Shown piece by piece: positions 11,606 through 60,472 of a stretch of DNA of 64,000 bases. The notes beneath the pieces are model-generated. The model was not told the DNA's origin. It searched no databases and worked only from the letters and a program-made list of their open reading frames with translations. Within the stretch, counting starts at the first letter, position 1, and every line of letters starts with the position of its first letter. Both the position numbers and the translations under genes were made by a program. The DNA comes from an uncultured Prevotellaceae bacterium (lineage in GTDB: Bacteria > Bacteroidota > Bacteroidia > Bacteroidales > Bacteroidaceae). Location of the stretch: NCBI GenBank assembly GCA_947170495.1, contig CAMVUB010000001.1, positions 1 to 64,000 of the forward strand, given 5' to 3'.

Positions 11606-12958
11606 CTACGCCGCCTGGCGAGGGATGAGGACGTAGCTGGTGCCGCGATGATGGCGATGCTGTTCGAAACCGCGCTTGCGCATCGCGACCCCTACCCTCA
11701 CCTTCACCGAGGTGCTGGACACCACGTGAGGATAGTGCATGGTGATGAGCTCCATGATCTCAGCCATGCTGTACTCGCGACCCGTCTCGTTGACCTTGGG
11801 CTTACGGAAGCAAGCATGCACGATGTCGTCGATCTCCATGACATGTTCGAACTGCGCATTGTCGAGCTGAATCTGTCGCGTCTCCTCAGGTGCGAACCAA
11901 TAGCGCATCTCACGCTCACAGACCTCCTCCACGACCTGCGCATACAACTGGTCGTAATCGATGGGTGCCTCATTGTCGATGATGCTTCCAGACGTCAGGC
12001 GGATGCAGAGGTAGCGACGCGAGCCCGTGGGGTCGTTCAGCGGACGAGGGTTGTTGGTAGTCGCCAGGAACGAGGCATAGCGGTGGCGCAACACCTGCGC
12101 ACCCTTGAGGATCGGACGCGCATTCACCGTGCTGCGCGAGATGGACTGCTTCAGCGATGCCTGCTGGCTTGTGGTGTACTGGTCGAACTCATCAAGCACG
12201 ACTATCATGTTGTTTGTCAGCGCCATATCCTTATCGAACTTGTTCGACAGGTTGATGCGATCCAGGAAATACTCCTGTAGTGCAGGAGGCAGCACACGGC
12301 GACAGAACACCGTTTTGCCACAGCCCTGATCGCCGATGAGCGTAGGCACGCTGTCGTTGCCGTGCAGCTGATCCTTCTTCAGCCAGTGAGCCACCGCCGA
12401 GCGCAACCAGATGCTGCAGCGGTAGATGTTCTCGCTGCTGATGCCCGGCAGACGACCAAACAGCTCAGCCACACGGTTGTGGCCATCCCAGCGGGGTAGG
12501 GTAGTGAGGTACTCGCGAACGGGGTCATACTCAGGCACTTCCTCGGAGTGCAGGAGCATCGTGAGCATGCCCTTCAGCCCCTTCATCTTCCCCAGCTGCG
12601 TAAGCGCATCGAGAATGATAGAATTCTCCGCTTCGTACGTCAGCTGGCGGAACGCCGACTCGCTGCCGTCGCGCAAGCGAAACTCCAGACGACCAGCCAC
12701 CACATTGTTGCGTAGCTCGTAACGGGCATTCAGGAACTCCTTCAGCGCCAGCACCTCGTCAGCATCGCCTGCATCCTGAGGGCCATTGTCGGCATCGGTC
12801 TCAACGTCCGCTTTTTCGTCATCGTCCTTCGCTTCTTCGATGTTCTCGACGACATTGTTAATACTTTGGTTTTCAGTAGTCTCTGTGTTCTCTGGGAGAC
12901 CTGTGAGGTCGCTTAACTTCACGCCCTCAGCAACATTCTTTTCAAATGTCTCTTTCAT
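11606..12958 (-). CDS. VapE-like P-loop domain protein (virulence-associated E / phage-type primase-helicase)
   Basis: LIGDQGCGKTVFCRRVLPP Walker A, VVLDEFDQ Walker B, SFLATTNN, GSRRYLCIRL. Confidence 0.85.
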   Translation of the reverse strand: MKETFEKNVAEGVKLSDLTGLPENTETTENQSINNVVENIEEAKDDDEKADVETDADNGPQDAGDADEVLALKEFLNARYELRNNVVAGRLEFRLRDGSESAFRQLTYEAENSIILDALTQLGKMKGLKGMLTMLLHSEEVPEYDPVREYLTTLPRWDGHNRVAELFGRLPGISSENIYRCSIWLRSAVAHWLKKDQLHGNDSVPTLIGDQGCGKTVFCRRVLPPALQEYFLDRINLSNKFDKDMALTNNMIVVLDEFDQYTTSQQASLKQSISRSTVNARPILKGAQVLRHRYASFLATTNNPRPLNDPTGSRRYLCIRLTSGSIIDNEAPIDYDQLYAQVVEEVCEREMRYWFAPEETRQIQLDNAQFEHVMEIDDIVHACFRKPKVNETGREYSMAEIMELITMHYPHVVSSTSVKVRVGVAMRKRGFEQHRHHRGTSYVLIPRQAA

Positions 12959-13139
12959 GATATTAATAAGGTATTAAGGTTATGTCTGGCACTATTGCCT
13001 AACTGGTTGCAAAGGTACAAATAATTTTTGATATACGCAATACATTTTGACAAAATCTCGAGGTTAAATTTCCACCTAATGTCACCTTTAACACTCAAGC
13101 AATTTTCATGCCAAATCGATGCTTCCTTGTGGCATGAAA

Positions 13140-13380
13140 GACGCGTCCTTATCGCTTGAACGACGCGTCGTGATGGCCGGAGGGACGCGTCGTAATTGCC
13201 GGAGGGACGCGTCGTGTTTTACTGTTCCATGCATGGAACTTGTCAGAAGACCGTGGTCTTCCGCCCGTAAGACCGCGGTCCTCCTGCCAACACACCGCAC
13301 TGCTCAGCCCGATGCACTGCGGTCCTCAGCCCATCACGCCGCACTGCTCTCGCTTTTCCCACGCATGAGAAAAACTCAAC
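13140..13380. repeat. 22-bp-period array (at least 10-11 units) with variable 8-bp palindromic or near-palindromic cores
   Basis: Core starts at 13140, 13162, 13184, 13206, 13228, 13250, 13272, 13294, 13316, 13338, 13360: GACGCGTC x4, CATGCATG, ACCGTGGT, ACCGCGGT, ACCGCACT, ACTGCGGT, GCCGCACT, CACGCATG. Confidence 0.88.
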
Positions 13381-13422
13381 ACCCCAGCCAGCCTTCGCAG
13401 AGACAAAAAAACAGGAAATCAT

Positions 13423-14052
13423 CGAAAACCCTACACCTCGCGCAAAATCGCCATAACAACCTCTTTATGAACCACTTGTCGCGCGCTCACACCTACGCAA
13501 CCTCGCGCAACCTCGCGCAACCCTACACGCATCCAGCCTATCAAGCGCCTCAGCACATACGCATATTCAAGTTTCGGGAGTCGCTATTATTTCTTTAACC
13601 GCAAAGGACGCAAAGTTTTTAAGGTTGCATGTCCTCGGGTAGCTTGAGCCATTGCGCTTCGCGAGACCGCAGAGCCGAACAAACGTGCTTCGCACAAGGT
13701 TTTGTTCTAGGCAAAGAACGCAAAGAACATGTCCTCTACTTTCTCTGCGCAGCCTTTGCGTCCTTTGCCCTTTGAAACCTGCGAAGCGTTTCAAAGGTTC
13801 TGCGGTCTTCCGATAGGCATAGGACTGACTTTGAGACCTTTAAAATCTTTGAGTCTTTGCGCCTTTGCGGTTAAAAGAAAAGGACAGTTAACTCCCATTT
13901 CTTCTACCATTTTTACTCCCGATAGTTAAGTACGCTTACTGACTGTGCGCGACCTTGCGTGAGGTTGCGCGAGGTTGCGTAGGGTTAAGCGCGCCATAAC
14001 TGTTTGTTTAACAACCATATACAATCATTTTGCGCGAGGTGTGACCTTTTCG
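13423..14052. mobile_element. MITE-like 630-bp inverted-repeat element
   Basis: Ends CGAAAA(N4)ACACCTCGCGCAAAAT (13423-13448) and its reverse complement (14027-14052); inner CGCAACCTCGCGCAACC repeats on both arms. Confidence 0.6.
13591..13879. repeat. Inner nested inverted-repeat element with CGCAAAG-type arms
   Basis: TTCTTTAACCGCAAAGGACGCAAAG..TTTTTAAGGT vs ACCTTTAAAATCTTTGAGTCTTTGCGCCTTTGCGGTTAAAAGAA, plus inner GCAAAGAACGCAAAG / CTTTGCGTCCTTTGC. Confidence 0.75.
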
Positions 14053-14199
14053 CCTATTTCGTTGATTTTTGGCAATGAGCAATCAGCCTCATCGACACCC
14101 ATAACAGCTGAAATAAGAGGGTAGGGGAGAAAAAACGCCCAATCCTTTGGCGCGTTCAAGAAACTTTTGCTACCTTTGCGGCAGAAAAATGCATATATC

Positions 14200-14445
14200 A
14201 TGACCACAACCATCAACATTTCGGTTAACATGCCTTCTACCTATGGCGTAGAACGGATTACACGTCAGCTTACTGAGTACGCCAAACTTCTCATTGCTCA
14301 GGAAGCACAGGAGTCTGTGATAGGTGAACGTATAGCACTTACGACAGAGATGCTTATGGCTGCACAGAAGGCCGAAGAAGAATTCAAGGCCGGAAAATGC
14401 ACTGATATGCAATCTTTTGAGAAAAGGTTCCAGAAATGGCTATGA
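14200..14445 (+). CDS. Putative antitoxin of a RelE/ParE-type pair
   Basis: Small ORF overlapping the downstream toxin-like ORF; promoter-like TACCTTTGC just upstream. Confidence 0.6.
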   Translation: MTTTINISVNMPSTYGVERITRQLTEYAKLLIAQEAQESVIGERIALTTEMLMAAQKAEEEFKAGKCTDMQSFEKRFQKWL

Positions 14446-14738
14446 ACATTCTGTTTAGCTCTCAGTTTCTGGAGAGCCTGGAATCCATTCTCGAGTTTTA
14501 TGATGTTCGTAATGGCAACGACACCTACAGCAGAAAACTCCTACAAAAGTTTCACCATCAGATAAACCAGCTGGCCACAATGCCCGACATCGGCCGGCAA
14601 ACCGACCATCCACATATTAGAATTCTCTTTGTGGACGACTATGGCATTGAATATGAACAGATAGACAATAGCATCCTTATCATTGATATTTATTCATGCT
14701 TAACCAATCCTGCGTTACGCAAATACAGAAAAAAATAA
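14436..14738 (+). CDS. RelE/ParE family toxin-like protein
   Basis: ILFSSQFLESLESILEFYDVRNG..IGRQTDHPHIRILFVDDYGIEYEQIDNSILIIDIYSCL fits ParE/RelE architecture. Confidence 0.7.
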   Translation: MAMNILFSSQFLESLESILEFYDVRNGNDTYSRKLLQKFHHQINQLATMPDIGRQTDHPHIRILFVDDYGIEYEQIDNSILIIDIYSCLTNPALRKYRKK

Positions 14739-14787: not shown

Positions 14788-14818
14788 TTGCGCGTTGGAA
14801 AATAATGCGTACATTTGC
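14788..14818 (+). promoter_or_regulatory. Bacteroidetes-type promoter of the CXXX operon
   Basis: TTG...TACATTTGC at about -33/-7 spacing. Confidence 0.6.
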
Positions 14819-14853
14819 AGCGGGGTTTACAATTAAATAAAAACGACATACTT

Positions 14854-15504
14854 ATGGACGAACAGAAGAAAAAGAATGAAGAACTACAAACCAGACGTGA
14901 GTTCTTCAAGAAAGCAGCAAAGAAAGTGCTTCCTATGTTAGGTGCAGTAGTGGTAGGGCCTTCCATCATTGCCACCGCTTTTACTTCCTGTGATAAATGT
15001 GATGGGTGTGAGGCTTCTTGTAGTGATGATTGCGAGGGTGGATGCTACTATGCCTGTGATGCTTCTTGTGCAAATGACTGCTATACTGGATGTAGCAGCT
15101 CATGTACAAGTTCTTCTTCAGGATCTTCTTCTTGTTCATATTGTTCCAATACCTGTAAGGGCGATTGCGAAGGTACATCTACAAGTTCGACAACTTGCAC
15201 AGGATCTAGTTGCTCTTCAACTTGCTCAGGTGGTTGTTCTGGCAGTTGCTCTGGCGGCTGCTCAGGTTCGGCTAAAAGCTCATGTTCAGGTTGTGCCACG
15301 ACCTGTAGTACATTGTGTGGAGGTTCTTGCCATTATTCTTGTGGTGGTGCTTGTTATACGAGCTGTACAGGAACTTGCAAATCTACCAATAAATCCGGAG
15401 GATGTAGTGGAACATGTTATGGATCCTGTTCAACTTCATGCGCCACGACCTGTAGGACGTATTGCTATTCTACGTGTAAAAACGTTGGACGTGCCTATTC
15501 TTAA
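14854..15504 (+). CDS. CXXX-repeat target peptide (Cys-rich, 216 aa, 37 Cys) with Tat-like leader
   Basis: TRREFFKKAAKKVLPMLGAVVVG leader then CEASCSDDCEGGCYYACDASCANDCYTGCSSSC..; followed immediately by radical SAM genes. Confidence 0.9.
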   Translation: MDEQKKKNEELQTRREFFKKAAKKVLPMLGAVVVGPSIIATAFTSCDKCDGCEASCSDDCEGGCYYACDASCANDCYTGCSSSCTSSSSGSSSCSYCSNTCKGDCEGTSTSSTTCTGSSCSSTCSGGCSGSCSGGCSGSAKSSCSGCATTCSTLCGGSCHYSCGGACYTSCTGTCKSTNKSGGCSGTCYGSCSTSCATTCRTYCYSTCKNVGRAYS

Positions 15505-15512
15505 AAATTGGT

Positions 15513-16763
15513 ATGATTAACATAAAGGAGAACTCTGACAGTTGGCAATCAGGTAGTTCGAAGAGCATCACGTTTATTGTGACCAAAGACTGCCAGTTGG
15601 CATGTAAGTATTGCTATTTAGTTGGAAAGAATACCAAAGAGCGAATGTCATGGGAGGTGGCAAAGGAAGCCATTGACTATATACTTGACAGGGAAAACGA
15701 GTTTAGGGAAGAGTCTGTAATTTGGGATTTTATCGGTGGAGAGCCATTCCTTGAAATAGACCTGATAGACAAGATCTGCGACTATTTGAAGACAGAGATG
15801 TTTCGCAGGAATCATCATTGGTTTAATTCTTATAGGTTTTCGTTCTCCACCAATGGTATTAATTATCATACATCGAAAGTGCAGCGGTTTATAGAAAAGA
15901 ACCGGTCGCACTTAAGTATCGGTATCACTATTGACGGTACAAAACAGAAGCATGACCTCAACCGCATCTGGAAAACGGCAGATATGGAACAAGGGAACAT
16001 GCCCAAGCCAGAAGAGGAGAAAGGTAGCTACGAAGATGTGGTGAAAAATATTCCGCTGTGGTTGGAACAGTTCCCGAATGCCGCCACGAAGGTAACAATT
16101 GCTTCGGCAGATATACCATATATCAAGGATAGTGTGTTGCATCTCTATGCACTGGGTATCAAAGAGGTAAACATCAACTGCGTGTTTGAGGACGTATGGA
16201 AAGAGGGCGATGATGTACTTTTCGAGGAGCAGCTGACAGAACTTGCTGATGCCATCATCGACCAGGATCTTTACCTCGACCATGCTTGCTCGTTTTACCA
16301 GGAAAACATTGGCAAACCTCTGGATCCCGAACGTGACAACGAAAATTGGTGTGGCGCAGGGCAAATGCTAGCAATTGACGCTGCGGGCAATTTCTATCCT
16401 TGTACACGTTTTGCCGCCTATTCGCTTAGGAGTAAGCCCGCATGGATTATCGGCAACGTGAAAGACGGTATCGATCAGAATAAGTTACGCCCTTTCTTAA
16501 TGCTCGACCGCATCACACAGTCGAAACAAGAATGTATAGACTGTGAGGTGTCTAGTGGATGCGCATGGTGTCAGGGCGAGAACTATGATGCGGCAGACAG
16601 TCATACTATCTATCAACGTGCAACAGCCATCTGCAAGATGCATAAGGCTCGCGTTCGTGCCAATAACTATTATTGGAACAAACTTTTCCGCAAGTTAGAA
16701 TTGATGGATCAGCAAGATGTATATGATAATCTGAAATCTAAAGTGACAGAGCCTGTATGCTGA
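15513..16763 (+). CDS. Radical SAM peptide maturase (CXXX-repeat target family, SPASM-type C-terminus)
   Basis: CQLACKYCY (CxxxCxxC), GGEPFLE, C-terminal CIDCEVSSGCAWCQGENYD. Confidence 0.92.
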   Translation: MINIKENSDSWQSGSSKSITFIVTKDCQLACKYCYLVGKNTKERMSWEVAKEAIDYILDRENEFREESVIWDFIGGEPFLEIDLIDKICDYLKTEMFRRNHHWFNSYRFSFSTNGINYHTSKVQRFIEKNRSHLSIGITIDGTKQKHDLNRIWKTADMEQGNMPKPEEEKGSYEDVVKNIPLWLEQFPNAATKVTIASADIPYIKDSVLHLYALGIKEVNINCVFEDVWKEGDDVLFEEQLTELADAIIDQDLYLDHACSFYQENIGKPLDPERDNENWCGAGQMLAIDAAGNFYPCTRFAAYSLRSKPAWIIGNVKDGIDQNKLRPFLMLDRITQSKQECIDCEVSSGCAWCQGENYDAADSHTIYQRATAICKMHKARVRANNYYWNKLFRKLELMDQQDVYDNLKSKVTEPVC

Positions 16764-51474: not shown

Positions 51475-51547
51475 CAATAGTCTCTCGTCTTACCCTCTAT
51501 AGAGACTACGCGCAGAGACTATAGAGGGTCAGGCGATGGAGTAGTAG
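51475..51547. repeat. 22-bp-period array with CTATAG-type cores (4 units)
   Basis: Centres 51477.5 (CAATAG), 51499.5 (CTATAG), 51521.5 (CTATAG), 51543.5 (AGTAGTAG). Confidence 0.75.
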
Positions 51548-51563
51548 TGTCTATTTATTAATC

Positions 51564-51617
51564 CATCATGATGGCTCAATCAATCCATCATGATGGATTC
51601 ATCATTCCATCACGATG
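51564..51617. repeat. 22-bp-period array with CATCATGATG cores (3 units)
   Basis: CATCATGATG, CATCATGATG, CATCACGATG centred at 51568.5, 51590.5, 51612.5. Confidence 0.85.
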
Positions 51618-51657
51618 GATTCATCTATGCACTGTACTCTTTCGGGCATCTGATGCT

Positions 51658-60029: not shown

Positions 60030-60102
60030 CTATAGTCCCTCGCCTGACCCTCTATAGTGTCTGCGCGTACCCTCTATAGAGGGTCAGGCGAGGGAGTAGT
60101 AG
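60030..60102. repeat. 22-bp-period array with CTATAG cores (4 units)
   Basis: CTATAG centred at 60032.5, 60054.5, 60076.5 and AGTAGTAG at 60098.5. Confidence 0.85.
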
Positions 60103-60137
60103 TGTCTTGTGTGTAGGGATGGGAATAACTTTTGTTG

Positions 60138-60247: not shown

Positions 60248-60453
60248 GGACGCGACCTTTTTGTTTTTCTCACGTGAGAAAAACAATTTGTCACTGATGG
60301 CCAATGCTTTTGTCACGCGTGGCAGATGGTTTTGCCACCAGTGGCAAAAGACGGAAGACCATGCTCTTTCAATCCGAAGACCTAAGGGTTATGAGAAAAA
60401 GCCTTAAGGGTTTTGCGCTGAAGCCCTGATGGTTTTGGGAGAATGTCCTAAGG
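60248..60453. repeat. 22-bp-period array (9-10 units) with variable near-palindromic cores
   Basis: Cores at 22-bp steps: GGACGCGA, TCACGTGA, CACTGATG, CACGCGTG, CACCAGTG, ACCATGCT, ACCTAAGG, CCTTAAGG, CCCTGATG, TCCTAAGG. Confidence 0.88.
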
Positions 60454-60472
60454 GTTTCGGAGTGTGGTGCGT

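Follow-up and report, generated by a model that had tools for sequence, protein, structure and literature searches.

Array A and its surroundings

The window analyzed here is the whole 64,000-nucleotide stretch of DNA, and all coordinates are positions within it. Array A occupies 13140-13382 in a VapE-flanked locus and is built of 22-bp units, each consisting of an 8-bp core and a 14-bp linker. The sequence-only reading had reported eleven units at an exact 22-bp step, and both the starts (13140, 13162 and so on to 13360, that is 13140 + 22n) and the listed cores were borne out. The first four units carry the core GACGCGTC at 22-bp spacing (13140-13227), and this core class occurs at 24 pairs in the source genome. 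The next unit, CATGCATG (13228-13249), keeps its centre in all four orthologues and is an example of the array A dyads that reach 16 bp, forming the perfect dyad GTTCCATGCATGGAAC. Five units of the ACCNNGGT class follow (13250-13359), with the cores ACCGTGGT, ACCGCGGT, ACCGCACT, ACTGCGGT, and GCCGCACT, the last three of which are degraded. The terminal CACGCATG unit (13360-13381) has the flanks tttcc and agaaaaa, and a similar unit is found on the inverted-repeat side of another array, L016. Intact orthologues revealed a twelfth, decayed unit with the core GATGCTTC at the start of the array (13118-13139); its orthologue is GACTAGTC in genome G130 and GATGCATC in G107, with flanks alike.

The palindromy of the cores is far above that of composition-matched shuffles. 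The best 11-unit score of array A is 36 of 44 core pairs, against a mean of 16.5 and a maximum of 23 in 2,000 dinucleotide-preserving shuffles, and with each distinct core counted once, 24 of 32 pairs are complementary (binomial p ~2e-8). When spacings from 14 to 33 were compared, 22 was a clear peak (0.82), 33 (1.5 x 22) was second at 0.59, and the rest were at or below 0.41. The description of the cores as perfect or near palindromes holds for most of them but was slightly generous, because ACCGCACT has two of four pairs and GCCGCACT has one of four. The observation of array A itself is confirmed.

A large inverted repeat adjoins array A. Its left arm (13404-13520) is 71% complementary to its right arm (13955-14071), and copies of it adjoin arrays at four other loci (L011, L015, L016, and L019) with similar junctions; the junctions between arrays and large inverted repeats are conserved on one side. 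The loop at L016 is only about 24 bp. Nested in the loop next to array A is a separate 321-bp palindromic repeat (13580-13900), which has been recently mobile, since a 100% identical copy is present on contig 21 (G000:C21:291-611). A second inverted repeat adjoins arrays at L012, L018, L022, and L026, and a CTATAG inverted-repeat module with dozens of copies in relatives lies beside other 22-bp arrays (51478-51552 and 60033-60107 in the window). The window also contains a small ORF pair (14167-14738), the second of which encodes a ParE-type toxin. At 14815-16763 lies a possible RiPP locus, made up of a Cys-rich 229-amino-acid peptide and, after it, an ORF with a Cys motif whose product resembles a radical-SAM protein.

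Distribution of the arrays and their fixed spacing

Two more 22-bp dyad arrays are present in the window. One has a different core, TCCATCATGATGGA (51553-51625), and the other includes TCACGTGA, CACGCGTG, CACCAGTG, and CCTTAAGG among its cores (60252-60460). Genome-wide statistics were obtained from about 0.6 Mb of sampled source-genome stretches together with pattern searches, and this sample holds about 29 such arrays, array A among them. A DNA search of the source assembly gave about 40 local matches. Viewed unit by unit, these are full 22-bp lattices with a recurring order of cores: GACGCGTC three times, CACGCGTG or CATGCATG once, ACCGCGGT or ACCATGGT a variable number of times, sometimes ATCGCGAT, and then CCTTAAGG a variable number of times. 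By mechanical ORF calls, 28 of the 29 distinct arrays are outside long ORFs, the exception (L021) being within a 673-amino-acid ORF call. The 29 arrays have no clear preference in orientation relative to genes. Coding constraint was rejected as the cause of the period, as 22 is not divisible by 3, and the arrays lie outside long ORFs.

The expected enrichment at lag 22 was found beyond array A. In a 464-kb sample that includes the window, there are eight strong-dyad pairs at lag 22, whereas other lags average 0.29. Between periods 14 and 45, a strict threshold leaves four chains at period 22, one each at 33 and 44, and no others. The full array set, which was partly picked for similarity to array A, gives counts of 80 at lag 22, 23 at lag 33, and 63 at lag 44 over a background of about 4, and lags 21 and 23 are at background level (7 and 2). 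The lag-33 cases are mostly core-to-linker dyads, which form an 11-bp half-lattice of alternating orientation. Genome G035 has arrays (L098 6016, L102 11206, and L105 17772) in which the dyads TACATGTA and TCAATTGA alternate at 22 bp with 11-bp half-steps; the core family is different and the lattice unchanged. The window also has many short tandem arrays whose heptamer words differ while the period is always 7 bp (548, 2149, 24240, 26383, 28895, 31382, 37687, 60519, 62734, and 62766), possibly another period-locked repeat class.

The 22-bp dyad arrays are a genus-specific family. The pattern GACNNGTC-N14-GACNNGTC was matched in 53 of 139 genomes of the source genome's genus, with 169, 88, 88, 55, 42, 31, and 26 copies in the richest genomes and usually 0-3 for a reversed control. 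The 295 genomes of the order outside the genus have 16 matches in all, which is the control level. Within a species the 8-bp dyad core is conserved across loci and the linkers vary, and each lineage has typical cores with diverse linkers: GACCGGTC in G016 and G067, GACCYGTC in G010 and G057, GACGCGTC in the source genome (G000), and ACCCGGGT in G124. The core centres are CG in G016 and G067, CC or CT in G010 and G057, GC in G000, AC, GT, or GC in G005, G033, and G071, and CA or TG in G063. Triplets of GACGCGTC at 22-bp spacing also occur in more distant sequences. An Actinomycetes MAG, Co_bin.55, has several (L044, L048, L056, L060, and L064) that seem to be plain direct repeats, and a viral contig has one (L106, 8285-8336). 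Kinship with loci of Actinobacteria and myxobacteria carrying three GACGCGTC words at 22 bp was considered and rejected; the actinobacterial loci have no surrounding lag-22 dyad excess and look unrelated.

Dyad symmetry and exchange of cores between relatives

The arms of the units are under constraint to remain complementary, and their covariation goes well beyond column composition. Symmetry was measured in 29 arrays with 172 units, and the expectation was taken from column composition. From position 1 to position 8, counted from the centre, the observed complementarity is 0.81, 0.87, 0.85, 0.92, 0.73, 0.72, 0.69, and 0.52, while the expected values are 0.51, 0.69, 0.38, 0.34, 0.45, 0.41, 0.39, and 0.34. 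The arrays were detected by these very dyads, and the result was therefore cross-checked on flanks left out of the detection: when units were detected from their inner four pairs only, positions 5-7 still paired at 0.64, 0.66, and 0.60 versus an expected 0.38-0.44. Adjacent units that differ at position 4 have 46 complementary double changes versus eight broken pairs. Taken class by class, the flanks covary strongly in CAYGYRTG, moderately in ACCNNGGT, and not at all in GACGCGTC. The 8-bp core is therefore the minimal dyad, and some classes extend it. Position 5 is anti-complementary in G035 (0.12 versus 0.48), showing that only the 8-bp core is dyadic there, as would suit a duplex site better than a hairpin.

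The locus of array A was compared in four genomes, G000 (the source), G114, G130, and G107. The units stay on the 22-bp lattice despite strong sequence divergence, and at this one locus the order and orientation of the linkers are collinear between the four species. G114 keeps the GC centre and G107 has ACCATGGT. In G130, cores resembling GACTAGTC and ACC[TA][AT]GGT take the place of the GACGCGTC and ACCGCGGT of the source genome. Between G000 and its close relative G130 the central dinucleotide is replaced in nearly every unit; identity is 0.12 in the centres, about 0.8 in the arms, and 0.70 in the linkers (Fisher p ~2e-7), with the pairing of some orthologous units ambiguous. The switch is array-by-array and not genome-wide, as other G130 arrays keep GC centres.

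Copy number shifts by whole 22-bp units between relatives. At the array at 60252-60460, G130 differs by exactly +22 bp, or one unit, in a region that is otherwise nearly identical, and G107 has only about one unit left. Another array, at a DUF5686 locus, is absent in the relatives G107 and G073. Thus arrays come and go. In G130 the DUF5686 locus has four CCCTATAT units in which core symmetry is lost; this locus was downgraded as clean proof of core exchange because amplification of one variant unit explains these units. The sequence-only reading had missed the exchange of core centres between relatives, the genus specificity, and the composite-element context.

Possible explanations

The best explanation, on which our confidence is evenly divided, is that the arrays are helically phased sites for a putative dimeric DNA-binding protein of drifting specificity. 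The sequence-only reading had proposed stacked dimeric proteins on one face of the helix. Several features agree with it: the two-turn spacing is locked at 22 bp (with 33 and 44 but not 21 or 23), copy number moves in 22-bp steps, a duplex-sized core is fixed in each lineage and the linkers are free to vary, and the G.U bias typical of RNA is lacking. These features support that proposal in part. The unit would be a double-stranded site with an 8-bp dyad core, such as GAC-NN-GTC or ACC-NN-GGT, and in many cases the symmetry reaches 16 bp. Placement at two helix turns would set copies of the protein side by side on one DNA face, as a lattice. The constraint would then come from the protein, whose specificity, above all for the central dinucleotide, may drift between lineages with the sites following. 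Units would be gained and lost by tandem duplication. The array and the large inverted repeat would make up a dispersed composite element, the array either travelling with the repeat or expanding next to it. The bound lattice could serve the host, in chromosome organization, supercoiling, or regulation, or only the element. Against such a lattice, the several core classes per array need one loosely coded protein or several paralogues, and some arrays lose core symmetry, as the four CCCTATAT units of G130 do. A co-evolving protein is not needed for replacement of the centre where a variant unit simply amplifies, some unit pairs of array A are ambiguous, and the switch in G130 goes array by array.

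Chief among the rivals is the idea that the arrays are a selfish minisatellite carried by a MITE-like element that resembles BrickBuilt. It would expand and contract by 22 bp without host function, and its symmetry would go back to a palindromic founder unit, with template-switch correction preserving it. This is rather unlikely, although much fits it. The arrays are dispersed and intergenic with no orientation preference towards genes, large inverted repeats adjoin them with conserved junctions, near-empty sites exist in relatives, the CCCTATAT unit has been amplified in G130, and the MITE BrickBuilt of Porphyromonas gingivalis contains a 23-nt minisatellite (PMC4596501). Neutral decay, however, should break dyads and add single-base indels, yet the arms covary and the spacing stays 22; in addition, GACCGGTC is held at many G067 loci with freely variable linkers. 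Tandem hairpins of RNA or single-strand DNA are less likely still and are disfavoured. Each unit would fold on itself into a covarying stem, with CNNG at the centre forming the loop. Such hairpins would account for the stem-like covariation and for folding z-scores of -3.4 and -5.1 on the + strand, but any dyad array would give significant z-scores. The mismatches have no G.U excess (45 G.T, 53 A.C, and 173 other; per-array heterogeneity p = 0.26), the G035 units mismatch at position 5, and hairpins would not require an exact 22-bp spacing. An Rfam search of 12900-14200 with E up to 1 matched no described covariance model, which speaks against a structured RNA family, and 3.8 kb of arrays contain no Bacteroidetes promoter motif.

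Serine recombinase crossover sites, in which mismatched exchange would convert only the central dinucleotide, are very improbable. The exchanged part is indeed the central dinucleotide and the flanks stay, and ACC-NN-GGT may resemble the hix/gix core with its 2-bp overlap. On the other side, no recombinase is linked to the arrays, and the linker order and orientation kept between relatives (one locus in four species) reveal no inversions. Chance or ordinary composition can be practically dismissed, as the shuffles never came near the observed value, only period 22 scores, and the pattern recurs throughout the genus.

The putative protein lattice could go further than a set of phased sites. It is possible, though we propose it tentatively, that these arrays are a previously undescribed chromosomal DNA-protein lattice of one Bacteroidales genus, with dozens to hundreds of intergenic 22-bp dyad sites. 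The units of an array would change their core word together, mainly at the central dinucleotide, and retain their arms, linkers, and helical phase. This would imply a fast-evolving partner and arms-race or drive-like co-evolution. With a protein behind the constraint, the cores of the different lineages would provide a ready-made set of sites, each matched to its own protein variant, and abundant gut and rumen bacteria would have a chromosomal docking lattice of a new kind. Without one, the arrays are a clear example of structural constraint acting on a selfish minisatellite.

Comparison with known systems

Bacterial intergenic repeats are usually described by a consensus sequence. Here the sequence is exchanged and the geometry of two helix turns and the symmetry are kept, and therefore genome sequences show the constraint directly. 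A literature search that took in few of the subscription journals found no description of 22-bp dyad arrays in Prevotella or Bacteroidales. The comparisons suggest that the arrays are a variant form of intergenic tandem or palindromic repeats, and it is quite possible that they are more than that.

CRISPR arrays, which combine identical repeats with unique spacers and cas genes, were rejected because the cores vary within an array, the linkers are 14 bp, and the genome has dozens of arrays. Iteron arrays and repressor operator clusters have protein sites about two turns apart; in contrast, the present arrays occupy dozens of chromosomal loci per genome and have no linked initiator or repressor gene. 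We know of no description of dyad symmetry and core exchange for the STAR elements of Staphylococcus aureus. These elements are, like the arrays, interspersed, intergenic, and genus-limited, and they consist of direct repeats (PMC3532100). The REP/BIME sequences of enterobacteria, for which an associated RAYT (Y1 transposase) gene is typical, are likewise intergenic palindromic units in alternating orientation with many copies per genome. A REP unit is a palindrome of 20-40 bp that carries a tag of the GTAG or CGTC type (PMC3733652). The units here, by contrast, are tag-free and 22 bp long, with a locked lattice and exchanged cores. Membership in REP/BIME was rejected, as positional composition of the 172 units has no constant tag of the GTAG or CGTC type at the unit edge.

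The closest parallel, BrickBuilt, comes from the same order and is also intergenic and dispersed with a variable number of units; its tandem units span about two helix turns and are joined to inverted-repeat modules (PMC4596501). BrickBuilt is always intergenic, and the same is true of 28 of the 29 arrays here. Its repeat is flanked by a leader and a tail with short terminal inverted repeats (PMC4596501). The BrickBuilt unit, however, is a 23-nt direct repeat with one consensus, AGAYCATARTATCCTCTCRTRTG, and is not a dyad (PMC4596501), whereas the present arrays have 22-bp dyads with several interchangeable cores. Membership was rejected on these grounds, the unit being exactly 22 bp and the dyadic cores unrelated to AGAYCATARTATCCTCTCRTRTG. 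Array A and its large inverted repeat are a dispersed composite element that is comparable to the BrickBuilt MITE and distinct from it.
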